Shown: positions 1 to 10,787 of the stretch, one piece after another | How the letters are laid out: the number at the start of each line of letters is the position of its first letter | Numbering within the stretch: the first letter of the stretch is position 1 | Assembly (NCBI GenBank): GCA_027019885.1 | Contig: JALUWC010000233.1 | Span: forward strand, 1-10,787 | DNA: 10,787 nucleotides | Direction of reading: 5' to 3' | Origin: Geoglobus sp. | GTDB taxonomy: Archaea; Halobacteriota; Archaeoglobi; Archaeoglobales; Archaeoglobaceae | Notes under the pieces: model-generated | What the model was told of the DNA's origin: nothing | The model's database searches: none | What the model saw: only the letters and a program-made list of their open reading frames with translations | Position numbers and translations under genes: made by a program

Positions 1-1722
1 TATAGCACTACCGAAACCACCCAGCAGAACATGATCTTCGATGGTCACAATTGCATTAACCCTTTGAGCTATATTTATGATCAGATCTCTATCAAGAGGC
101 TTAATAAATCGTGCATTTACTACATATATTGGTCCATACTCTCCCTTTAATTTCTCTGCTGCCTCCAAAGCTGAATAAACAGTATTACCAATAGCAAAGA
201 TTGCAAGGTTATCTCCTTCTGTAAGGATCTCTCCCTTTCCTATATGAATACGGCTTAAATCATTGTCCAATTTAATCCCAATACCTTTCCCCCTTGGATA
301 TCTGACTGCTATTGGCCCATTATGAATGGTTGCTGCAAACATCATATGTTGCAATTCATTTTCATCTTTTGGAGACATTATTGTCATGTTTGGAATGTGC
401 CTTAAAAATGATATATCAAACAATCCATGATGTGTAGGCCCGTCTTCACCAACAATGCCTGCCCTATCCATTGCAAATATTACATGGAGGTTCTGGAGAC
501 ATACATCATGTATAATCTGGTCATATGCCCTCTGTAAAAAGGTGGAATAGATTGCAACAACCGGTATAAAACCCTCTCTTGCCATGCCCGCTGCAAAAGT
601 CACTGCATGTTGTTCAGCTATACCTACATCAAAATATCTATCAGGGTACCTTTCAGCAAATTTATCAAGTCCTGTCCCTTCTGGCATCGCTGCAGTAATG
701 GCGATAATTTTTTGATTCTGTTCTGCAAGTCTGATAAGAGTCTGGCTAAATATCTCAGTATATGTTGGGACATCCTCTTGAGACTTTAATATTCTCCCTG
801 TCTCTATATCAAATGGGCCTACTCCATGAAATAACGATGGGTTTGACTCTGCCGGTCTATAACCTTTACCTTTTTTTGTCATTACATGAATAAACACAGG
901 TCCTTTCATATCTCGCACACCAATCAGAGTATCTATAAGCTGGGAAAGATTATGGCCGTCGATAACACCGATGTAGTGAAATCCAAAGGCCTCAAAGAGC
1001 ATTCCCGGAGTCAATAATGCGATTATTGACTCCTCTGCCTTTCTCAGCAACTGTGTAATCCCCCCACCTATTCCTGGAAGAGATTCAAAAAATTTCTGAA
1101 TTTCCTTCTTTCGCTCTGTTATAAACCTGCCAGTTACTTTTCTGCTTAAAAACAAAGATAAGGCCCCTACATTTTTTGAGATAGACATTTCGTTATCGTT
1201 CAATATTACAATTAGATTCTTTTTAAGATGGCCTGCGTTGTTTAGACCTTCAAAGGCAAGGCCAGCTGTCATAGCACCATCCCCTATAACCGAAATAACT
1301 TTAAAGTCATCTCTTTTTAATTCGCAGGCAGAGGAAATACCAAGACCCGCAGAAATAGAAGTTGAAGAGTGCCCTGTTCCAAAATAGTCATACTGGCTTT
1401 CTGAAGGTTTAGGGAAACCGCTTATTCCACCATACTGCCGCAGGGTTGAAAACATGGAATATCTGCCTGTCAAAAGCTTGTGTGCATATGATTGATGCCC
1501 CACATCCCAGATAATCCTGTCTTTTTTAATATCGAAAACATAATGAATAGCAATGGCGAGTTCCACAACCCCAAGATTAGATGAAAGGTGTCCACCATTG
1601 GTTGCTACTGTTGAGACAATGAGATCACGGATCTCATTGGCAAGGCTTAAAAGCTCTTTTTTATTAAAGTTTTTAATATCCTCTGGGTTATTAATCCTCT
1701 CTAATAATTTATCGTCTGTCAT
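1..1722 (-). CDS. dxs: 1-deoxy-D-xylulose-5-phosphate synthase, C-terminus cut by window edge
   Basis: Thiamine-diphosphate enzyme of the cytoplasm that condenses pyruvate with glyceraldehyde 3-phosphate to DXP, the first step of the MEP isoprenoid route. The reading frame runs unbroken for 574 codons from the ATG at 1722 to base 1, so about 50 residues of a usual 620-635 are missing. Visible family marks are GGHLSSNLG near residue 43, the ThDP/Mg motif GDGAMTAG starting at residue 147 followed by LNDN, and GIAEQHAV with the catalytic Glu at residue 370, the same number as in the E. coli enzyme. The last residues, [13 protein letters not shown], are a normal C-terminal-domain stretch. The start is fixed by an AGGAGG eight bases upstream. 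It lies 31 bases after the beta-barrel gene, with no terminator visible between them, so it probably shares the transcript while having its own strong ribosome site. No key residue seems lost. Confidence 0.97.
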
Positions 1723-1730
1723 GATATTAT

Positions 1731-1736
1731 CCTCCT
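1731..1736 (-). promoter_or_regulatory. Strong Shine-Dalgarno site of dxs
   Basis: The minus strand reads AGGAGG, ending eight bases before the dxs ATG. It sits in the 31-base gap after the beta-barrel gene and settles the dxs start. It is among the best ribosome sites in the window. Confidence 0.85.
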
Positions 1737-1753
1737 GCTATTCTTACATAACT

Positions 1754-2923
1754 CTAAAAGTAAAACTGCATCTGGGCATAATAAAGGTGGCTGAATTTCC
1801 CATATTCACTCTTATCATCTCCCTCAAAGAGAAGAGCTCCGATCATTACATCCATATCTTCAAAGATGTTGTATTTTAATGAGGGATTTATGAAGTAGCT
1901 TTTATCATCTACATCAAAAATCAGGAGGTTATCTGCTCTGAAGAGTGGGGTTATATCATAGCCGAGTTCTATGCCCCAAAAATTTTGGTTTTTTGTGGTA
2001 ATTTCATTCAAATAAGGCTGAATAAATATATTTTCATCTTTTATGTTGCCTCCATTATAAAGATATTCCATGAGGATATAGAATGTATCTGGAAAAGTAT
2101 AATCCCAGCTCAGGACAAAGCGAAGGAAATCATCCCTTTTATCATCAAAGGTGTATGTTGCCTCCCCCCTGAATCCACTCCCTTCAATGTAGCCTGAAAA
2201 ATCAAAGCCGATCATATAGTCATCATGCCCGATTCTGCTCCCCATTACAGAAAGGTCATATCCTTTGAGTTTTGATCGACCTTTCAGGATATAACCCTCA
2301 CCTGAGAGCTTTTTTACATATATAAAACTGATATTGCTAAAGGCATTTATACTAAAATCCATCTTAACCGCATCAACTCCTGTCCTTTCAGTTCTTTCAA
2401 TACTCACTGGATTAATAGGATTAATAACATCTTCTGGATTCCATATTCTACCAACACCCATAGCAATCCTCTGCCTCCCAGCAGTAAGGCTAATCAAATC
2501 ATCTGTATAAGTAAGATACAGTCTATAAATAGAATGCCTCCAGTAAAGATCAGGGTTATCGGCCAAGATACTATCCATGTCATAATAGACATCTCCTTCA
2601 CTTTTCTTAACAAACAAGAATTCTTGGGTATTCAGTATTTCGCCTAAAATAACTTCATTATCATAAATTGCCTTTGCTGATATCTCTGGATTAAATGAAA
2701 TATCGAGCTCAACTCTCAAGCGATTTAGATCACTATAATAATCTTTACCAGAAGAGGTCTCAGAAACTGAAAACAGGTTCTTATAATACCCCTTTAGATT
2801 AAATCCTGTCCCATACCCAGGTAAAAATCCAGATGACAGGGCAATTGAGGGGATAAAAAGGTTTAAGATAAGCATCAGCCACCATATCTTAATCTCTTTT
2901 TTCCTCACTCTCAATTCTTCCAT
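1754..2923 (-). CDS. Outer-membrane beta-barrel protein, porin-like
   Basis: A predicted outer-membrane beta-barrel of about 389 residues. The N-terminus has a basic stretch (RVRKKEIK), a hydrophobic run (IWWLMLILNLFIPSIAL) and a small-residue region (SSG), as in a Sec signal peptide. The rest alternates polar and aromatic/hydrophobic residues in amphipathic strands, and the protein ends in YAQMQFYF with the terminal Phe typical of BAM-inserted barrels. A segment near residues 145-170 reads AGRQRIAMGVGRIWNPEDV and then INPI. This resembles the conserved turn of DUF1302-like barrels that often accompany LolA-like and lipid-transport genes; the match is from memory. The start is uncertain: the ATG at 2923 overlaps the ATPase gene by 35 bases and has its GAGGG directly against it, while a GTG at 2908 has GGAAG at a better distance. 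It probably acts at the outer-membrane end of the transport route encoded just upstream. The exact family and cargo are unknown. Confidence 0.72.
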   Translation of the reverse strand: MEELRVRKKEIKIWWLMLILNLFIPSIALSSGFLPGYGTGFNLKGYYKNLFSVSETSSGKDYYSDLNRLRVELDISFNPEISAKAIYDNEVILGEILNTQEFLFVKKSEGDVYYDMDSILADNPDLYWRHSIYRLYLTYTDDLISLTAGRQRIAMGVGRIWNPEDVINPINPVSIERTERTGVDAVKMDFSINAFSNISFIYVKKLSGEGYILKGRSKLKGYDLSVMGSRIGHDDYMIGFDFSGYIEGSGFRGEATYTFDDKRDDFLRFVLSWDYTFPDTFYILMEYLYNGGNIKDENIFIQPYLNEITTKNQNFWGIELGYDITPLFRADNLLIFDVDDKSYFINPSLKYNIFEDMDVMIGALLFEGDDKSEYGKFSHLYYAQMQFYF

Positions 2924-3575
2924 CCCTCAGGATAATCACCCTTGATGCCATCTCCATTACCATGGGGTCATGAGTAGAAAAAATAAATGTTATATTCTCC
3001 CTGTGATTCATCTCCTGCATCAGTCTGAGTATCGAAATTCCTGTATTTGAATCGAGATTGGCCGTAGGCTCATCTGCGAGAATAACAGCAGGTTTTGTAA
3101 CCATGGCCCTGGCTACTGCCACCCTCTGCTGCTGCCCCCCACTCATCTCTTTTGGTCTTCTATTAGCAAGTTCCAAAATGCCAACATCTTTTATTATTTT
3201 ATTAACCCTCTCTCTTCTCTCTGCCTTATCAATACCGAGCAGGAGTAATCCTAATTCTATATTTTCAACAGCTGTCAAAACAGGTATAAGGTTGTACTCC
3301 TGAAATATAAAACCAATTCTCTTAAGACGGAGGTCAGAGCGTCTTGCTTTTGAAAGGAGTGTAATATCTTGATCTTCGATATACACTTTACCCTTTGATG
3401 GCCTGTCTATTCCGCCTATTAAATTTAAAAGTGTTGTCTTTCCTGACCCAGAAGGACCTACTATGGCAAGAAATTCACCCTCCTGCACCTCAAAGGACAC
3501 ATCTGTGACTGCATGGACCTTTAATTTGTTTTTCCCGTATACTTTTGAAACCTTATCTAATCTTACAATAGCCAT
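2889..3575 (-). CDS. ABC transporter ATP-binding protein, LolD/MacB type
   Basis: Cytoplasmic ATPase of 228 residues, complete and of normal length for the LolD/MacB/FtsE group. It shows Walker A GPSGSGKTT at residues 40-48, Q-loop Gln92 in FIFQEYNL, the signature MSGGQQQR at 144-151, Walker B VILADEP at 164-170 followed by the D-loop NLD, and the H-loop STHD with His202. All catalytic residues are present, so it should hydrolyse ATP. The ATG at 3575 shares one base with the TAA of the permease gene (TAATG), and GAGG lies eight bases upstream, which supports translational coupling. The partner is almost certainly that permease. Family members extract lipoproteins or lipids from the inner membrane or drive periplasmic efflux. 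The LolA-like and beta-barrel neighbours favour lipid or lipoprotein transfer to the outer membrane, but the cargo cannot be read from the ATPase. Confidence 0.93.
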   Translation of the reverse strand: MAIVRLDKVSKVYGKNKLKVHAVTDVSFEVQEGEFLAIVGPSGSGKTTLLNLIGGIDRPSKGKVYIEDQDITLLSKARRSDLRLKRIGFIFQEYNLIPVLTAVENIELGLLLLGIDKAERRERVNKIIKDVGILELANRRPKEMSGGQQQRVAVARAMVTKPAVILADEPTANLDSNTGISILRLMQEMNHRENITFIFSTHDPMVMEMASRVIILRDGRIESEEKRD

Positions 3576-4831
3576 TATATATGCCTCAGTGTATCCACTA
3601 TCTCAAGACGAGCTGCCTTTAAAGCTGGGTAAAGGGCAGCAATGATAGAAATTGAAAATACAAACAGTAAAGGTATCAGTATTCCCTTCCATGTAAACAT
3701 CGAATATATAATGGTATTTATGCCAAGGAATCTCCCGATCCCATGGGAAAACTGCGAAAAATCAAACCCATATTTACTCAGATACCATATATCGCCCAAT
3801 CCAATTATGACACCAATACTACCAGCTATTGCTGCAAGGAAAAATGACTCTAACAGTATCATTAAGACAATCTGCCTATCCCTCATCCCAATAGTCATGA
3901 TTATTCCTATTTCCCTGAACCTCTCAAAAACACTCATTAGCATGGTGTTTAAAATGCCCATGGCAACAAGAGTAAAGACAATGCCCATTACAATATATAT
4001 ATTGACCTTATTTATACGAATTATTTCCACCATATCAGGGGCAAGGTCCTTCCATGTCAATATCTCAAGTCCCCTATCTTTCAATGACAGCGATAGGGAG
4101 CGATAAATACTTTCAAGATATTGAGACTTTTGGAGCAACACAACTATCACTGATACCTCAGACTCATAACCTGCTATTTTCTGGGCTGTATTTAATGGGA
4201 TATATACTGTTGAGCGGTCAATCTCAGGGATACCTGTCCTAAAAATTCCTCTAATACGTAGTGCCCTCGCCCCCATCGAGCCGTCATATGCCTGAGTTAA
4301 TAAGACGATCTTGTCTCCGAGATCAACTGAGAGATTTTTTGCGAGCCTTTCACCTATCAGTATGGAAGGGCTGTCTGCCTCTTTAAGATATCCTCCTTTG
4401 ACAATGGTGCGTTCAAGAACGGATACCTGCCTTTCCTCTTTCGGAGAAATACCTACTACCATGGCACCTGCCGAATTTCTTGTGCTGCTTATTAATGCTT
4501 GGAACATTACTCTCTTTGTTACAGCTTTGACATAAGGAGTCAGGTTTGCCGAATAGATATCTTCGATAATTCTGTCAGGTTCAGATATAAACTTTGCTGT
4601 ATCTATCTCCTGATGAAATTCAGCTTCAGATATCTGGATATGCCCCGTCTGTAATCTAACGACATTATTTATCATCTGCTCGTTAAAACCATCATTAAAC
4701 CCGTTCAGGTGTATGAGTATGGCAAGCCCAAAGGCTATAGCAGCACTGGTAATAAAAGACCTTCTCTTATTTCTAAAGACATTTCTTATTGCGATCTTTG
4801 ATAGTATACCAATGGTATTAATAATGTTCAT
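3575..4831 (-). CDS. ABC transporter permease, MacB/LolC/E (FtsX) family
   Basis: Inner-membrane permease of about 418 residues with the MacB/LolE plan. It has a cytoplasmic N-terminal helix (IAIRNVFRNKRRSF), TM1 near residues 26-42, a periplasmic domain to about residue 270, then three TM segments near 275-297, 322-347 and 383-403, ending in ALYPALKAARLEIVDTLRHI. The segment FERFREIGIIMTIGM after TM2 is the usual coupling region for the ATPase. I chose the ATG at 4831; a GTG at 4840 is in frame but has no ribosome site. Either start overlaps the end of the LolA-like gene (14 or 23 bases). Only one permease is encoded here, so a homodimer is expected, unlike the LolC-LolE pair of E. coli. In this family the work is mechanical transfer of a hydrophobic cargo at the periplasmic face, not passage through a channel. 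The setting suggests a lipid or lipoprotein cargo. Confidence 0.9.
   Translation of the reverse strand: MNIINTIGILSKIAIRNVFRNKRRSFITSAAIAFGLAILIHLNGFNDGFNEQMINNVVRLQTGHIQISEAEFHQEIDTAKFISEPDRIIEDIYSANLTPYVKAVTKRVMFQALISSTRNSAGAMVVGISPKEERQVSVLERTIVKGGYLKEADSPSILIGERLAKNLSVDLGDKIVLLTQAYDGSMGARALRIRGIFRTGIPEIDRSTVYIPLNTAQKIAGYESEVSVIVVLLQKSQYLESIYRSLSLSLKDRGLEILTWKDLAPDMVEIIRINKVNIYIVMGIVFTLVAMGILNTMLMSVFERFREIGIIMTIGMRDRQIVLMILLESFFLAAIAGSIGVIIGLGDIWYLSKYGFDFSQFSHGIGRFLGINTIIYSMFTWKGILIPLLFVFSISIIAALYPALKAARLEIVDTLRHI
3584..3587 (-). promoter_or_regulatory. Shine-Dalgarno site of the ABC ATPase gene
   Basis: The minus strand reads GAGG, eight bases before the ATG at 3575. It lies inside the last codons of the permease gene. 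With the TAATG overlap it points to coupled translation of permease and ATPase. Confidence 0.6.
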
Positions 4832-5591
4832 ATTTACCACTCTTTAAGTTTTGTAATGTATAAATTCTCTTATTGATAGGTTTATCGAATGCTATATCTA
4901 AGTATCTAATTACCGTTAAGCCGTCTTTATTAACCAATGGTCTCATCTCAAGACGGGCCGGGAATTTTCTCCCGCCAAGATTTTTAATATTAGAATAACT
5001 AAGTACACGGATGAGTTTCCCTGATTCATCATAATATTCCTGGCGAATGGGGATAAAGTCTTTGGCCCTAATTATCAATCTCAGCTTGCCCCAGACCACA
5101 GGTGCCTCTGGTTTAGGTATGGACTCTATTATATACACCTCCTGACCTTTAATTTTTGTTTTATCTACTAATCTATGTTCATAATCCATGATTATCGTAT
5201 CAGTACGGACAATATCTTCATAGGTAAAGTCACTGCCCATCCATGGCTGTGCCATCATTGAGGGTGCTATCTTAATTATCCTCTCCACATCAGGGATGTA
5301 TGTCCATACCTCTTTACCAACTTTTAGCGTCCCTATCCCCTGTTCTTTAGATGGATAGACTATGCGAACCATTGTCTTCTCGAGCTTCTCACTCCATGTT
5401 TTCAACCTTATTGTCCTTTTCCATTTAGGTCTAATTACTGTCATCTCTACAAATGCCCTGTTGGTGGCATTTCCCCTTAAGATCTCATCCGTCTTTTCTA
5501 CAATCTCTCTTCCGGTGAGTTCGGCCATCCCTGGAGGAACAACGCCAAGAAATATTATTGAACAAATTATTAATGCTATAAATACCCTCAT
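4818..5591 (-). CDS. Outer-membrane lipoprotein-sorting protein, LolA-like periplasmic carrier
   Basis: Exported protein of 257 residues. A signal peptide covers residues 1-23, with a hydrophobic run and a GMA cleavage site before ELTG. Cys10 is inside the hydrophobic run and is not a lipobox. The mature part matches the LolA-like outer-membrane lipoprotein-sorting family (I believe PF17131): antiparallel strands with ...WTYIPDVERIIKI near residues 96-108, followed by the family mark SMMAQPWMGSDFTYEDIVR at 111-129. Proteins of this fold carry acyl chains in a half-barrel across the periplasm. The ATG at 5591 overlaps the aminotransferase stop as ATGA, with no good ribosome site, so translation probably depends on the gene before it. 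It stands directly before an ABC permease and ATPase of the Lol/MacB type and is the likely periplasmic relay for their cargo. It could carry a lipid instead of a lipoprotein; sequence does not decide. Confidence 0.88.
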   Translation of the reverse strand: MRVFIALIICSIIFLGVVPPGMAELTGREIVEKTDEILRGNATNRAFVEMTVIRPKWKRTIRLKTWSEKLEKTMVRIVYPSKEQGIGTLKVGKEVWTYIPDVERIIKIAPSMMAQPWMGSDFTYEDIVRTDTIIMDYEHRLVDKTKIKGQEVYIIESIPKPEAPVVWGKLRLIIRAKDFIPIRQEYYDESGKLIRVLSYSNIKNLGGRKFPARLEMRPLVNKDGLTVIRYLDIAFDKPINKRIYTLQNLKSGKYEHY

Positions 5592-6925
5592 TTCAGCTTA
5601 ATATCTGCCTTTCTGGTTATATATTTTAATTCTTCAAGTACATCAGCAACTTTCTGAACTGCATAATTTATATGTCTTTCTGTCATCGGAATTGAGAGAA
5701 AAAACGCACATCGTTTTGATAGAAAAACACCCTTATTGAGAAGCATTATATGAAAGAGGGGTGTTAATCTTTCAAAGAAATGTGTCTGTTTTCTTTTAAA
5801 AGAGCTGTCTACATTAAAATGGATTTGACAAAAAGATCCCGCACCTGTAATTTTAATGCCTCTTAAGTATCTTCCCATAATTTCAAAAAGCTGCCTTCTT
5901 AAAGTATCACCTAAAGCATTTAGACGCTGGATATTTTTCTTAGTGAGTTCTTTAAGAGTAATATATCCACAAACCATAGAGGCCTCATTACCATTAAATG
6001 TACCTGAGTGAAACACTCCTTTTTTTTCCTCGGACAGGAGTTGCATTATATCACTACGCCCTCCAACCGCTCCAATCGGGAAACCGCCTCCAATCATCTT
6101 ACCGAGTATGGTCAAATCAGGCCTTATGCCAAATAATTCCTGCGCCCCACCTAATGCAAGTCTGAAGGTCAAGACCTCATCGAATATTAGAATAATATTA
6201 TTTGCACTCGTCAGTTCTCTTAACCTTTGCAAATAGTCACTCTGCGCTGGTATCATTCCCCCTGCACCCAGCATTGGCTCTACTATAAGACATGCAATCT
6301 GCTTTTTATGCCTTGATATAATCTTTTCGACTAACTCTGCAGAATTATATGGAACGAGTATGACATTTTTTGCTGTCTCCCCCGTGAGACCATGGGGTGT
6401 GACTCTTTTTTCGCCATTATATATCACATCATCATATGTTCCATGATATCCATCAATGATCTTAATTATCTTTTCCCTTTTTGTAAATGCCCTTGCAAGT
6501 CTGACAGCATACATGGCGGCTTCTGTACCAGAATTAGTAAATCTAATCTTTTCAATAGAAGGCATACGTTTACATATCAAGCCTGCAAGCCTTATTTGAT
6601 TTGCAGTAGGTGCACCGAATACCGTACCCCTCGTCAGCTGGCGGCTCATTTCAGTTACTACTTTTGGATGACAATGCCCGAGAATAAGTGAACCATAATT
6701 ATTTAAAAAATCCAGATACCGCTTATTATCTTCATCGTAAACATAGCAGCCCTTTCCATGAGTCATATAAGGTGCAAATGGGGGGAAATGAGCTGCACTC
6801 CTGGTATTGCCATCTGGGAAATACCGTATCCCTTTGGAGTAAAGCCTCCCTGAATCTTTATGAGTTCTTGTATATTGTGACATTATTTTTTGATGTATAG
6901 ATTCAATTAATTTAATCGTTTCCAT
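5588..6925 (-). CDS. Class III PLP aminotransferase, beta-amino-acid transaminase-like
   Basis: Cytoplasmic fold-type I PLP enzyme of 445 residues, complete. Cofactor residues are visible: SGTEAAM at 132-138 for the phosphate, DGYHG at 158-162 for ring stacking, Asp249 in FDEV for the pyridine nitrogen, and the Schiff-base Lys276 in LGKMIGGGFP. The overall match is to the glutamate-1-semialdehyde aminomutase (HemL) branch, but two places look more like its beta-amino-acid transaminases: PDGNTRSAAHFPPF at 37-50 in place of the HemL N-terminal motif, and DEVLTFRLALGG at 249-260 where HemL has DEVMTGFR. Arg42 falls where the known beta-phenylalanine aminotransferase has a carboxylate-binding Arg (from memory). 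The gene overlaps the KamA-like gene by 14 bases and the LolA-like gene by 4. The pair suggests an aminomutase making a beta-amino acid that this enzyme then transaminates; this is inference. A HpnO-like or a true aminomutase role is an alternative. Confidence 0.88.
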   Translation of the reverse strand: METIKLIESIHQKIMSQYTRTHKDSGRLYSKGIRYFPDGNTRSAAHFPPFAPYMTHGKGCYVYDEDNKRYLDFLNNYGSLILGHCHPKVVTEMSRQLTRGTVFGAPTANQIRLAGLICKRMPSIEKIRFTNSGTEAAMYAVRLARAFTKREKIIKIIDGYHGTYDDVIYNGEKRVTPHGLTGETAKNVILVPYNSAELVEKIISRHKKQIACLIVEPMLGAGGMIPAQSDYLQRLRELTSANNIILIFDEVLTFRLALGGAQELFGIRPDLTILGKMIGGGFPIGAVGGRSDIMQLLSEEKKGVFHSGTFNGNEASMVCGYITLKELTKKNIQRLNALGDTLRRQLFEIMGRYLRGIKITGAGSFCQIHFNVDSSFKRKQTHFFERLTPLFHIMLLNKGVFLSKRCAFFLSIPMTERHINYAVQKVADVLEELKYITRKADIKLK

Positions 6926-8066
6926 CTCGATAATACCCTATGATGCATCCATGCTCATCAATATAATGCCTTCCGGGCAGAGAATTCTGGTTTGTGTATC
7001 TAAAAAACTCATCAGGATTATAAACCATCCTCGTTCTGATAAATTTTTGATCTCCTTTGTAATCATAATCCAATACTTCCTTATTAATCACATGCACCTT
7101 CCCAACCTCTGTAGCAAACACATAATTGGGACATAATGTAGAAGATAGCTTGAAAAGTTCCTCCATTATTTCAATACCCCGTGCTACTGAGGTACGGAAG
7201 TGATCAGAACCAACCACAGGCATACAGTGATTAAGATAATATGGGATTATCCTGTTTCTAATCAAGATACTGAAGAGGGTAATAATAGTGTCCGGATCAT
7301 CATTTATCCCTTTAAGGAGGACAGTCTGGTTGCGCAGGATTATACCCTTAGAAACAAATTTATGACATGTCCTTATTGCTTCTGGAGTCAATTCGTCTGG
7401 ATGATTGAAATGCACATTAATTGCTAATGACTTGCTCTTTGTCGGGTTAACATAATCTGGCACGTTAAATCTGTTCAACCTTTCTATGAGTTCGTCCGTA
7501 AAGATATGCGGCCTATAAAGCAGACTTCTTGTCCCAATCCTTATATCATAGATATGGTCAATAGACATTAATGAGGTTAAGAGAAAATCCAGTCTGTCCA
7601 AATCAAGAAAAGGATCTCCACCTGTAATTAATACCCCTCTGATTTCGGGATTATTTGAGATATATTCAACGGCCTTTTTAATATCGTTCTCATCCATCGG
7701 TCTCTTTGATCTCTGAACCCTTGACTTTCTAAAACAAAAACGGCAATAAGCCGGGCAATCAAATACTGGAATAATGATCACCCTGTCTCTATATACCCTT
7801 TCAAGTCCGTGTACACCTGCACAGTGTTTTCCGCTCTCAAATGGTTCATCTGTTCCATTAGAAGTTAATTCCTCTGGAGACGGGAGAAACTGCCTGCCCA
7901 CAGTAGATGGATATCTTATAATAAGCTCTCTCAAGTAGGATGTTACCTTTGCAGGATATAGTTTTATAACCTTTTCTATATCATTATCAATATTCGTATT
8001 TCTGTCATATTCTTCAGAAAAATTATTAAGATTGATGATTTCTTCAGTATCCATATGTATTCCCAT
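6912..8066 (-). CDS. Radical SAM protein of the lysine 2,3-aminomutase (KamA) family, substrate unknown
   Basis: Radical SAM enzyme of 384 residues with a CX3CX2C cluster motif (Cys104, Cys108, Cys111 in CPAYCRFC), the SAM-contacting GGDP at 149-152, and family blocks IRIGTR (175-180), HFNHPDEL (219-226), NQTVLLKGIND (246-256) and DHFRTSV (288-294). Arg113 matches the carboxylate-binding Arg134 of clostridial lysine 2,3-aminomutase, and Lys323 in VGKVHV matches the PLP lysine 337. By my alignment the two Asp residues that bind the side-chain amine of lysine (293, 330) are Met282 and Ala318. The usual PGGGGK loop is two residues shorter, and the C-terminal Cys cluster of the longer aminomutases is absent. 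I therefore expect a 2,3-aminomutase-type reaction on something other than lysine. The start is set by GGAGGA six bases before the ATG. It begins two bases after the glycosyltransferase stop and overlaps the aminotransferase gene. EpmB is an unlikely alternative. Confidence 0.9.
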   Translation of the reverse strand: MGIHMDTEEIINLNNFSEEYDRNTNIDNDIEKVIKLYPAKVTSYLRELIIRYPSTVGRQFLPSPEELTSNGTDEPFESGKHCAGVHGLERVYRDRVIIIPVFDCPAYCRFCFRKSRVQRSKRPMDENDIKKAVEYISNNPEIRGVLITGGDPFLDLDRLDFLLTSLMSIDHIYDIRIGTRSLLYRPHIFTDELIERLNRFNVPDYVNPTKSKSLAINVHFNHPDELTPEAIRTCHKFVSKGIILRNQTVLLKGINDDPDTIITLFSILIRNRIIPYYLNHCMPVVGSDHFRTSVARGIEIMEELFKLSSTLCPNYVFATEVGKVHVINKEVLDYDYKGDQKFIRTRMVYNPDEFFRYTNQNSLPGRHYIDEHGCIIGYYRDGND

Positions 8067-8068
8067 AC

Positions 8069-9232
8069 TTAATCCTCCTTTAGTACAAAAAACTTATCAT
8101 TCGAAATCAGCTTATATTTAATTCCTCTCCATGTAATCGTTTTACCGAATATTGAAAATAAGACTGTAATACTTGATAAAAAGCCTCCAACAACAGCTCC
8201 GGATATTGCCCATAAAGCAGTACGTTTATCATTAAAATATAATGCTGTTATAATACCCCCAATAGTAAGAATTGGGATAAGAGCTGAAATTATCATTCCA
8301 TGAATAAACAAATGGCGATAAAAAACTGACAAAATTAATAAGGATATGCCAACAGGAACCATGAGATAGGGCAAGATAAATACAAAAACGGTTTTCCAGA
8401 CATGCGGTGCATAAACTTTTAATATTATAACTTCCCGCCATAACCACTGAAAGAAATCACGAAGAGTGATATCACTGTAGTCATAGCAGAGGCATTCTGG
8501 TATGAACCTTATCTCTAATCCCATCTTTAGAATCTCCCGTGCGAGCGACAGGTCATCACTTATGGCCATTGACCATATCTTTTCTATATCTATCTTCTCA
8601 ATCGTTTCTCTCCTTATCGCCATGGCTGCTCCACATACCATCTTTTCAGATAAATACTTGGGAACTCCCCCGATATTTCCTATCATCGCCCTCAGCCATG
8701 AGACAATATTTCTACTATGAGGGATATACCACTGAGAACCTGTTGTAATACCAACATCATGGTCTAAGAGTGGATATACAATCTCCCTGAGCCATGTAGG
8801 TTTTGGCTGGCAGTCAGAATCCATAAAAGCTATGATTTCAGCTTTTTGGACAATGGGGTCATGCAATGCATATAACAGGTTGTTTACCTTCTGCCCCCTT
8901 TGCGGATTTATCCCGGCAACAAGCAATTTTGTATTTTTTCTTCTCTCGCAGAAGGCAGATAATACTGGATAGACTGGATCATCCTTCTCTGCAGTTACAA
9001 AAACAACAGAATAATCAGGATAGTCCTGACACATAACTGCATTGAGATTTTCCTCAAGCCTTTCATCTATACCCTTGCAGGGAATAATAATTGAAACAGA
9101 GGGGTATCTCGAAAAACATGGGATTCGTTTCTTTCTCTCCTTTAGAAACAATCTGATCTTGCTCAGTTTTGAGACCTGCAGCAATAACACAAACACTAAA
9201 ATTGTTATCTCAAATCCTATATAAAAATTCAT
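8069..9232 (-). CDS. Membrane-anchored family 2 glycosyltransferase, ceramide glucosyltransferase/HpnI-like
   Basis: Inner-membrane glycosyltransferase of 387 residues facing the cytoplasm. One N-terminal TM helix (about residues 3-20) is followed by a GT-A domain: PSVSIIIPCKG at 44-54, the metal-binding DSD at 138-140 in AFMDSDCQP, CGAAMAIRRE at 200-209, and ISDDL with the likely catalytic Asp at 224-228. Three C-terminal TM helices fill about 272-360. The order resembles ceramide glucosyltransferase and the hopanoid enzyme HpnI, which add a sugar to a membrane lipid. The usual QxxRW after the catalytic Asp is not present as such; residues 262-266 read QWLWR, followed by VYAPHVW. I chose the ATG at 9232 because AGGAAAG lies just before it; an in-frame TTG at 9253 has no ribosome site. 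It begins 29 bases after the UbiA-SCP2 gene and ends two bases before the KamA-like gene. The acceptor is probably a lipid. The sugar donor is unknown. Confidence 0.87.
   Translation of the reverse strand: MNFYIGFEITILVFVLLLQVSKLSKIRLFLKERKKRIPCFSRYPSVSIIIPCKGIDERLEENLNAVMCQDYPDYSVVFVTAEKDDPVYPVLSAFCERRKNTKLLVAGINPQRGQKVNNLLYALHDPIVQKAEIIAFMDSDCQPKPTWLREIVYPLLDHDVGITTGSQWYIPHSRNIVSWLRAMIGNIGGVPKYLSEKMVCGAAMAIRRETIEKIDIEKIWSMAISDDLSLAREILKMGLEIRFIPECLCYDYSDITLRDFFQWLWREVIILKVYAPHVWKTVFVFILPYLMVPVGISLLILSVFYRHLFIHGMIISALIPILTIGGIITALYFNDKRTALWAISGAVVGGFLSSITVLFSIFGKTITWRGIKYKLISNDKFFVLKED
8073..8078 (-). promoter_or_regulatory. Shine-Dalgarno site of the KamA-like gene
   Basis: The minus strand reads GGAGGA, six bases before the ATG at 8066. 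It lies within the last codons of the glycosyltransferase gene, which ends two bases before the KamA-like start. It selects this ATG over the in-frame ATG four codons later. Confidence 0.8.
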
Positions 9233-9234
9233 CT

Positions 9235-9241
9235 CTTTCCT
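9235..9241 (-). promoter_or_regulatory. Shine-Dalgarno site that decides the glycosyltransferase start
   Basis: The minus strand reads AGGAAAG, with its AGGA core five bases before the ATG at 9232. Nothing similar stands before the in-frame TTG at 9253, so the shorter protein is preferred. Confidence 0.6.
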
Positions 9242-9261
9242 GATTAATATCAATATAATTA

Positions 9262-10647
9262 TCAGCTAAAGCTGTGCAATGTCTTTTTGTATGCCAGGCT
9301 TAAATACCTTATAAAATCAAGAGATTGGAGAGGGTTGCTTGGGGCCCCAACGATCTCAACCTCTCCTGCATATTGCAATTTCACAGGATTTGTCTTTCCC
9401 ACCATTACATCATGAAAATTAATAAATTTCATCTTGAGCATGTATTCGCTCTTGGAAAAGGGGATATAGGAAGCATACATTTTCTTGTTTTCGACCTTTA
9501 TATGCCAGAATAAATCAAGGTCCGTAAAGTGGTACGACTGGTATTTTTCAATATCCTTTCTTATCATAATATTCTGCGGCAATTTTTCAAGAATCCTCTT
9601 TATGGTCTCTTTATCATAAGGAGGGGTTTTTATTGAATCTGGCCTTCTAAGCGAGAAGTGGTCTTTCAAAATAATTATATCATCAATATATTTCTGCCAC
9701 ACCTCCCTTCTGACAATTAAAATGTACATCACCAATAGCAAAACATTTTTAAGGTCTCTCTCTATGAGGAGGAACAATAAGGCAAAAGGCAAAAAGAGGG
9801 AAAAGTAATCATCCATATATGACTCAACTGGCGAGATATTAATTATATTATATCTTTTCATTAATGACCAGTGAACAACTAATATAAAACCAAACCCAAG
9901 GAGCAATAACATCAGCTTAATATTCATGGCAGAAATCACTATTAGAATAGCAGTTGAAATCAGCAATTCTATTGGCATAAGTATTTTATAAAGTAAAAAA
10001 TTTACTCTTCCAATGCCCAGGTTATGCACAATTGTGGATACATTGGTTCTCTTATCATTGAAAAAATCGACAAGCTGATGCTGAATAAGCTTTCTTACAT
10101 TAAACAGGTAAAGCTTTATAAAAAAGAGCATAAGAGCGATATCAAAAGACGTTACAAGTAGGATAACGCCAGTTAAGAAAATAGACGGTAGAAGGTTTGC
10201 TGCAAATACACCAAGGGCTGCTCGTTCCTTTAACCTGACAGGGGGCATTGAATATAGATATCCTATGACATAGCATAGAAGCAGTAAATAGATTGGAGTA
10301 GCATCAGCTATTATAAAATTTGCAAGGAAAAATATCGGGGCTATTCCGCCAATGATGGTGAACAACAATATACTTAATATCACTACTTTTGATAAGGATG
10401 CAGTTGGTTTTACCTTATGTGCCTTTAGATCGACTTCTCTGTCACTGAAATCATTAATTAAAAAGGTAAAGACCGCACAGCAAGAAAATGACCAGAAGGT
10501 TGTTATTGAAAACAACAATGGATGCACTGCATTGCTGCCAGATATAAAGATGTAGAAGACAGGAACCAGCACAAGGGGAACAATAAAGTTCCACTCATGC
10601 CACCTTGTCAAAGCCAAAAAAAATTCTCTGAAGTTTCTACTTGTCAT
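9262..10647 (-). CDS. UbiA-family prenyltransferase fused to a C-terminal SCP2-like lipid-binding domain
   Basis: A 461-residue protein in two parts. Residues 1 to about 320 form a polytopic UbiA domain with both Asp-rich motifs: NDFSDREVD at 65-73 (NDxxDxxxD), and D194/D198 in VDFFNDKRT (DxxxD), with YSMPPVRLKE at 132-141. These bind the Mg-diphosphate of a prenyl donor, so transfer of a prenyl group to a ring or polar acceptor is expected. After a charged linker, residues 376-455 look like a sterol-carrier (SCP2) domain: LFWHIKVENKKMYAS, then FINFHDVMVGKTNPVKLQYAGEVEIVGA, where the GKTNP at 417-421 and the following G-x-V-x-I-x-G strand match the SCP2 core. UbiA enzymes are usually about 280-320 residues, so the extension is extra. 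The ribosome site before the ATG is weak, and the preceding gene stops 15 bases upstream, so coupled translation is likely. Donor, acceptor and the lipid held by the SCP2 part are unknown. Confidence 0.87.
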   Translation of the reverse strand: MTSRNFREFFLALTRWHEWNFIVPLVLVPVFYIFISGSNAVHPLLFSITTFWSFSCCAVFTFLINDFSDREVDLKAHKVKPTASLSKVVILSILLFTIIGGIAPIFFLANFIIADATPIYLLLLCYVIGYLYSMPPVRLKERAALGVFAANLLPSIFLTGVILLVTSFDIALMLFFIKLYLFNVRKLIQHQLVDFFNDKRTNVSTIVHNLGIGRVNFLLYKILMPIELLISTAILIVISAMNIKLMLLLLGFGFILVVHWSLMKRYNIINISPVESYMDDYFSLFLPFALLFLLIERDLKNVLLLVMYILIVRREVWQKYIDDIIILKDHFSLRRPDSIKTPPYDKETIKRILEKLPQNIMIRKDIEKYQSYHFTDLDLFWHIKVENKKMYASYIPFSKSEYMLKMKFINFHDVMVGKTNPVKLQYAGEVEIVGAPSNPLQSLDFIRYLSLAYKKTLHSFS

Positions 10648-10662
10648 CTTTATGCAGTTAAC

Positions 10663-10787
10663 TCAGGCAAAATCACCTGTTATCATATATTCAGAGAATG
10701 CATTACCACTGTCTGTTTTTTTACCGTAATAAATCAATGCATCAGATGCCTGATATGCCTTAAAATCTATAAATTTTGGTGTAAAAA
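10663..10787 (-). CDS. C-terminal end of an unrecognised protein, cut by window edge
   Basis: An open frame enters from the right edge and gives 40 residues before a TGA at 10665-10663. It begins FTPKFIDFKAYQASDALIYY and ends AFSEYMITGDFA. The other two minus-strand frames here stop within a few codons of the edge. The stop lies 15 bases before the UbiA-SCP2 ATG on the same strand, as expected for an operon neighbour. The end, with a Gly-Asn-Ala-Phe, a Glu-Tyr and a closing TGDF, faintly recalls the last strand of lipocalin-like CrtC/AttH proteins, but the stretch is too short to assign a family. Confidence 0.55.
   Translation of the reverse strand, partial: FTPKFIDFKAYQASDALIYYGKKTDSGNAFSEYMITGDFA

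Follow-up and report, generated by a model that had tools for sequence, protein, structure and literature searches.

Contig C233 (JALUWC010000233.1), the entire 10,787-base stretch that was analysed and is called the window below, belongs to a draft genome recorded under the archaeal genus Geoglobus (GCA_027019885.1). Its nine open minus-strand genes, preceded by the last part of a tenth gene, may form one operon that makes and exports a single prenyl/sugar/beta-amino lipid, in steps running from dxs to an outer-membrane barrel. We hold this reading tentatively, at somewhat less than even confidence, and one common product and co-transcribed modules with separate work appear about equally likely. 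The gene run, the protein families, the conserved catalytic residues and a recurring export cassette are read from the sequence, and the functional steps from dxs to the barrel are what we infer from them. The operon is a lineage-specific assembly of known modules, of which the combination is new and the parts are not.

The nine genes fill the contig, in the order UbiA-type prenyltransferase (UbiA), glycosyltransferase (GT), KamA-like enzyme, aminotransferase (AT), LolA-like carrier, permease, ATPase, barrel and dxs. The eight junctions between them, computed from the first start codon of each open reading frame, range from a 35-base overlap to a 31-base gap, with overlaps at five of the eight. 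The gap between UbiA and GT is 8 bases, or 29 if GT starts at the ATG at 9232, which is judged from the sequence to be the more likely start (rather than 9253) since a better ribosome site precedes it. A gap of 2 bases separates GT from the KamA-like gene, followed by overlaps of 14 (KamA-like/AT), 4 (AT/carrier, as ATGA), 23 (carrier/permease), 1 (permease/ATPase) and 35 bases (ATPase/barrel), and by a gap of 31 bases before dxs. The initial annotation had described all genes as lying tightly packed on one strand and had feared a split between AT and the carrier; the packing is as described, with overlaps or gaps of at most 31 bases, and the run continues through that junction. That the genes overlap at five junctions, among them AT/carrier with its ATGA, supports a common product. 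The upstream gene stops 15 bases ahead of UbiA, so the operon start is likely to lie outside the window, and the operon probably begins beyond the contig; the fragment of that gene gave no Pfam match at E 10. An Rfam scan of the window returned no match, and a scan for terminators (7 predicted, against 7.3 in shuffles) and promoters (50, against 38.6, standard deviation 6.8) was not used.

The KamA-like enzyme is so labelled because its TIGR00238 score of 184.9 bits narrowly misses the cut-off of 199.2. Its CxxxCxxC cysteines are C104, C108 and C111, and the lysine of its GKVHV stretch, which presumably binds pyridoxal phosphate, aligns with the GGGGK lysine column of the rows resembling lysine 2,3-aminomutase (LAM). 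Of the LAM residues Asp293 and Asp330, which we take to bind the lysine side chain, the first is replaced by M282 and the second is lost in a shortened stretch, and R134 is kept as R113. Both aspartates are also lost in all 15 orthologues (L002-L016, 48-53% identical), which have Lys at the position of Arg113, and both are kept in 51 of the 52 other CxxxCxxC rows, the exception being the Bacteroidota locus L135 (12 of the 64 rows in the alignment were wrong open reading frames and were dropped before this count). Because the window protein and all its orthologues have lost both, the enzyme is predicted not to use lysine. Candidate assignments as a lysine, glutamate or arginine 2,3-aminomutase were rejected, the scores being far below cut-off and the lysine residues lost. 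The subfamily with Met for Asp293 is uncommon. Searches at E 1e-85 detected it in 2 of the 82 genomes of one phylum and in 1 of 395 Bacteroidota genomes (a search in which apparently at most four candidates were scored per genome), and all three had already turned up in the search that gave the orthologues. By record title, its members come from Bacteroidota, Caldithrix and KSB1 (the latter two one phylum) and the bacterium of the window. Plasmid matches to the enzyme number 134 records, at most 37% identical among those listed. A small, weakly SpoIIAA-like protein lies inside the locus at 13 of the 15 orthologues.

By its residues, AT is a predicted beta-transaminase. K276, R42 and R405 align with K267, R41 and R398 of the beta-phenylalanine aminotransferase VpAT, in which we take R398 to be a second carboxylate-binding arginine. 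Among 119 relatives listed of 7,968, the equivalent of R41 is present in 117 and that of R398 in 109. Passages of PMC9850050 report that VpAT R41 binds the substrate carboxylate. The best solved relative is 6k8h, that is StoTA, described in passages of PMC10589169 as a transaminase of beta- and gamma-amino acids; 4ao9 (VpAT) ranks fourth. The second arginine is missing from both StoTA and the AT of L135. As a guess from the sequence, the substrate would be a free beta-amino acid and not a coenzyme A (CoA) ester. Relatives at E 1e-60 were found in 7 of 31 genomes with 33-39% identity, and four of these seven were fetched (L135-L138). In lysine fermentation, according to passages of PMC3149608, an aminomutase and a HemL-like beta-transaminase work within one pathway, the transaminase acting on a CoA ester; this published pairing, together with the presence of both VpAT arginines in the window AT, argues for a common product. 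Two Bacteroidota loci (L135:4341-9926 and L148:4145-9728) carry, in identical order, genes for an aminomutase-like protein, CoA transferase A and B, a HemL-like AT and a thiolase (Pfam was run on L135 only), and AT of this type was matched in 2 of 148 genomes at E 1e-120. The locus resembles the Kat lysine fermentation locus, and the aminomutase-like protein of L135 is without both of the aspartates discussed above.

UbiA has eight hydrophobic segments and both Asp-rich motifs (N65 D66 D69 D73 and D194 D198), which together with LYSMPPVRLKER are common to P0002. The catalytic residues conserved in UbiA, the KamA-like enzyme and AT further support a common product. The initial annotation spoke of a UbiA-SCP2 gene, of which the UbiA part stands, with PF01040 above cut-off, and the SCP2 tail is weak: the tail alone gave PF14864 (presumably a member of the SCP2 fold group) at E 0.0026 and PF02036 at E 0.17, while with the whole protein PF14864 reached E 0.021 and PF02036 did not appear at E 0.1, all below cut-off. 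An SCP2 tail is therefore only hinted at, and weakly; structure models of UbiA and of its tail had low mean predicted local distance difference test values, of 46 and 36. Out of 7,996 candidates scored at E 1e-3, two proteins matched UbiA, one being the query and the other 27% identical over 61%. In the phylum to which an Aminicenantes record belongs, 2 of 247 genomes gave matches at E 1e-12. Three plasmid records also matched, and in the two inspected (L117:7284-10610 and L118:7164-10820) the UbiA-like sequence is part of a large cyanobacterial protein, with phytanoyl-CoA dioxygenase or TPR protein as its annotation, close to AMP-binding, sulfotransferase and glycosyltransferase genes.

The best NCBIfam model for GT is TIGR03472 (HpnI), with 113.5 bits against a cut-off of 310, and its layout is HpnI-like, with one N-terminal and four C-terminal hydrophobic segments and a DSD motif. 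Ceramide glucosyltransferases have a (Q/R)xxRW motif, at the site of which GT carries QWLWRE. Its plasmid matches number 22 records, at most 27% identical among those listed. A hopanoid cluster was rejected because the HpnI score is too low; the window is also without a hopanoid gene.

That membrane lipid enzymes adjoin a route from the inner to the outer membrane, as the initial annotation held, was borne out by Pfam and NCBIfam for the families and by matches to cassette barrels for the barrel. The carrier has a signal-peptide-like N-terminus (hydrophobic stretch at residues 3-21), and the permease, with four hydrophobic segments, scores below the TIGR02212 cut-off of 362.45. The barrel gave no Pfam match; it has a hydrophobic N-terminal stretch and a C-terminal Phe, and is 23-30% identical to cassette barrels elsewhere (best E 1e-29). 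A search with the carrier at E 1e-15 matched 19 of 31 genomes, and 18 loci were examined (the best 14 of 32 matches in the 31 genomes, and 4 of 14 plasmid records, H1-H4). The order LolA-like, permease, permease, ATPase, barrel is complete in 12 of the 18, and two more, cut by contig ends, match it as far as they extend. In three the order is ATPase-permease-permease-LolA and no barrel was recognised, and the remaining locus combines an MMPL pump, a LolA-like gene and DUF1302. All 12 complete cassettes have two permease genes against one in the window, whose cassette is a one-permease variant of this recurring LolA-permease-ATPase-barrel cassette. In Borrelia, passages of PMC13078400 propose a single homodimeric permease (BBJ27) for BBJ26-28 and a non-polar ligand, the ligand being uncertain; this similar one-permease set and the conserved order of the cassette likewise support the reading of one exported product. 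No stated cargo for LolA-like/permease/ATPase/barrel cassettes was found in the literature, nor any related paper joining the KamA family, UbiA, LolA and a glycosyltransferase. In 8 of 14 cassette loci (L115, L124 and L126-L131) the LolA-like gene is directly preceded by a gene read by eye as TetR-type, which hints at induced export.

Table 1. Features of the 10,787-base window, listed in the direction of transcription
Feature	Coordinates	Strand	Basis
Upstream gene, last 40 codons and stop	10663..10785	-	single open frame of three, ends TGA
UbiA-type membrane prenyltransferase, 461 amino acids, C-terminal tail maybe SCP2-like	9262..10647	-	PF01040 37.4 bits, cut-off 34.2
GT2 membrane glycosyltransferase, HpnI/ceramide-glucosyltransferase-like	8069..9253	-	PF13641 70.1 bits, PF13506 39.8 bits
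KamA-like radical SAM aminomutase, predicted non-lysine subfamily	6912..8066	-	PF04055 51.2 bits; CxxxCxxC
Class III aminotransferase, predicted beta-amino-acid transaminase	5588..6925	-	PF00202 222.9 bits
Periplasmic LolA-like carrier	4818..5591	-	PF17131 181.4 bits, cut-off 30
LolC/E / MacB-type ABC permease, single copy	3575..4840	-	PF12704, PF02687; TIGR02212 lolCE 142.7 bits
LolD-like ABC ATPase	2889..3575	-	PF00005 132.3 bits; TIGR02211 225.6 bits against cut-off 307.75
Outer-membrane beta-barrel, receiving end of cassette	1754..2923	-	matches barrel gene of 12 cassettes
dxs, 574 codons here, cut by contig end	1..1722	-	TIGR00204 838.8 bits, cut-off 466

If these genes serve one product, dxs would add isoprenoid precursor, UbiA would attach a prenyl chain to an acceptor in the inner membrane, and the HpnI-like GT would put a sugar on the lipid at the cytoplasmic face. 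The KamA-like enzyme would act on an amino acid other than lysine, probably a hydrophobic one, and shift its amino group from the alpha to the beta carbon. AT would interconvert the resulting beta-amino acid and its beta-keto acid, which would provide a beta-amino building block or head group. The ATPase and a homodimeric permease would extract the finished lipid, the LolA-like carrier would take it through the periplasm and the barrel would receive it. The firmest of these proposals is that the cassette moves some hydrophobic cargo, and the boldest is that UbiA, GT, the KamA-AT pair and the cassette act on one product. We consider unlikely the most novel version, in which the product would be a new class of envelope lipid: a prenylated, glycosylated molecule with a beta-amino acid that the non-lysine KamA-like enzyme and a dedicated beta-transaminase would form, exported to the surface by a Lol-like cassette with one permease and coupled to lipid synthesis.

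At 2.77 Mb (8.75% contamination), the source record exceeds its six same-genus relatives (1.6-1.9 Mb each) by 0.9 to 1.2 Mb. None of the 59 archaeal relatives searched has a full dxs, two of them giving weak C-terminal matches (26-28%). KamA-like proteins, matched in 22 of 60 genomes when the window's own is counted, do not exceed 44% identity among the archaeal relatives. Among the matches listed, other proteins are 61-66% identical to the dxs of the window; 13 of those listed bear an organism name (61-63%), of which 12 have genus names that we take to belong to Deltaproteobacteria/Thermodesulfobacteriota and one is from Nitrospirae. Since dxs, a LolA-like carrier and a barrel are all encoded in the window, and nearly all named relatives of its dxs are from Thermodesulfobacteriota, we read the contig as bacterial DNA, probably misbinned with an archaeal genome, and the best explanation for the host is a diderm bacterium near Thermodesulfobacteriota. 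The taxonomy of the record is thus uninformative on the operon, and archaeal relatives are the wrong domain to search. The same-genus genome G006 has ribosomal RNA for which the archaeal small-subunit model is the best Rfam model when rival models compete; searched by itself, that model matched 4 of 13 genomes, the source record being without a match, and it also matches bacterial controls, so that the verdict on G006 rests on the competing-model comparison. On other contigs dxs is 634 amino acids long.

Several observations weigh against a common product. The initial annotation had looked to conservation of the block from UbiA to the barrel in relatives, and no second genome carrying the whole block was found: it occurs in none of the loci reached, which is weak evidence because genomes of Thermodesulfobacteriota, the nearest phylum, were outside the context search. 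When the nine window proteins were compared by tblastn with 80 KamA loci, only KamA and two ATPase matches (E 1e-4) appeared beyond the window's own locus. Of the four AT relatives L135-L138, L135 alone gave a KamA-like match (26%), which adjoins its AT, and the UbiA relatives L149 and L150 showed no other window gene besides one 18-residue ATPase match (E 0.006). The scattering of genes that had been named as the sign against one system was seen in the loci reached, Thermodesulfobacteriota not being covered: a luciferase-like monooxygenase gene, and no lipid gene, follows the KamA orthologue in 15 of 15 loci; the monooxygenase gene is absent from the window, where AT follows (Pfam was run on two of the 15 luciferase-like neighbours and on one of the small proteins, the others being grouped by blastp). 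The export cassette, too, stands elsewhere without these enzymes. UbiA, GT, KamA and AT matches were found in 0 of the 18 LolA-like loci (E 0.01; 1.5 to 9 kb a side), so that the claim that biosynthesis and export stand together as if for one product is not supported in that form: the presence of the cassette here is not itself proof of one product. StoTA, the closest solved relative of AT, is without the second arginine yet acts on beta-amino acids, so this residue is not required for beta-transaminase activity. The divergence of UbiA and GT is too great to name their substrates, and dxs may be a housekeeping neighbour. Pfam gave no ligase, adenylation or acyltransferase family within the window, so no gene there visibly couples amino acid and lipid, although such a gene could lie outside the contig.

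These points leave room for a composite operon without a common product, to which we give appreciable credence, again short of even, and in which the modules would share a promoter through genome compaction. The cassette would then move lipoproteins or ordinary membrane lipid, the KamA-AT pair would handle a beta-amino acid for another purpose, UbiA and GT would make a quinone- or polyprenol-type lipid, and dxs would be housekeeping. The LolA-like loci without enzymes, the different neighbour of every KamA orthologue and the separability of the modules by family all agree with this, whereas genes of different modules overlap too (AT/LolA), UbiA and GT act on lipids, and the cassette would carry hydrophobic cargo.

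It is improbable that the KamA-like enzyme and AT are instead a catabolic, Kat-like pair, converting an amino acid through a beta-amino acid to a beta-keto acid for energy. The Kat route has been shown experimentally, according to passages of PMC3149608, and the L135 and L148 gene groups favour the idea, but CoA transferase, thiolase and 5,6-aminomutase are absent from the window by Pfam, the window AT has the second arginine that the L135 AT is without, and the neighbours in the window are envelope genes.

An assembly chimera or binning artefact is very hard to credit: although the contig sits in a contaminated record of an archaeal genus and UbiA is recorded on the 10,787-base contig only, which leaves the UbiA-to-AT part without a cross-check from another contig, misbinning affects the contig as a whole and not its joints, identical AT and identical dxs proteins each have a further record on a contig 15,946 bases long (a sign that the stretch from AT to dxs is also present in a second assembly), the guanine-plus-cytosine content is even (34-41% across bases 1-10000) and the overlaps of reading frames at the joints are clean.

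A cassette within an operon of nameable chemistry would narrow the possible cargo to a range that is open to testing by lipidomics. Also of interest is the KamA subfamily that has Met for Asp293, a predicted non-lysine aminomutase group found in several lineages.

Compared with known systems, the KamA-like enzyme shares with lysine 2,3-aminomutase (2a5h) the sequence family, CxxxCxxC and R134, and differs in the two aspartate positions and in its C-terminus. AT aligns over nearly its full length with both VpAT and StoTA and has R41 in common with both and R398 with VpAT, while E75 of VpAT is Asn in the window AT, as in StoTA. HpnI, which transfers glucosamine in hopanoid synthesis, is the top model for GT, though at about a third of its cut-off score and with no hopanoid gene nearby. 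The Kat locus, compared by its description in passages of PMC3149608, likewise pairs an aminomutase with a HemL-like beta-transaminase in a single pathway; the window is without its CoA transferase, 5,6-aminomutase and thiolase, the ends of the operon lying outside the window. E. coli LolABCDE has the same transport logic and the same permease, ATPase and carrier families, whereas the window is without LolB, has a PF17131 carrier and a barrel, and scores below the cut-offs for LolC/E and LolD. In Prevotella nigrescens (L120, MMPL - LolA_like - DUF1302) the carrier family is the same, with a DUF1302 protein adjoining it, but an MMPL pump replaces the ABC transporter. Borrelia BBJ25-BBJ28, as described in passages of PMC13078400, combines a LolA-like carrier, an ATPase, one proposed homodimeric MacB-like permease and an outer-membrane barrel; its barrel is of Omp85 type, it has two TPR proteins, and those passages name no biosynthetic gene. 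The cassettes elsewhere (the plasmid records Vibrio campbellii L116 and Persicobacter L115, and records found through Bacteroidota, KSB1 and others) differ from the window in having two permeases and none of these enzymes, and share with it the order LolA, permease, ATPase, barrel, the 12 complete ones being 34-39% identical to it in LolA, 48-55% in the ATPase and 23-30% in the barrel.

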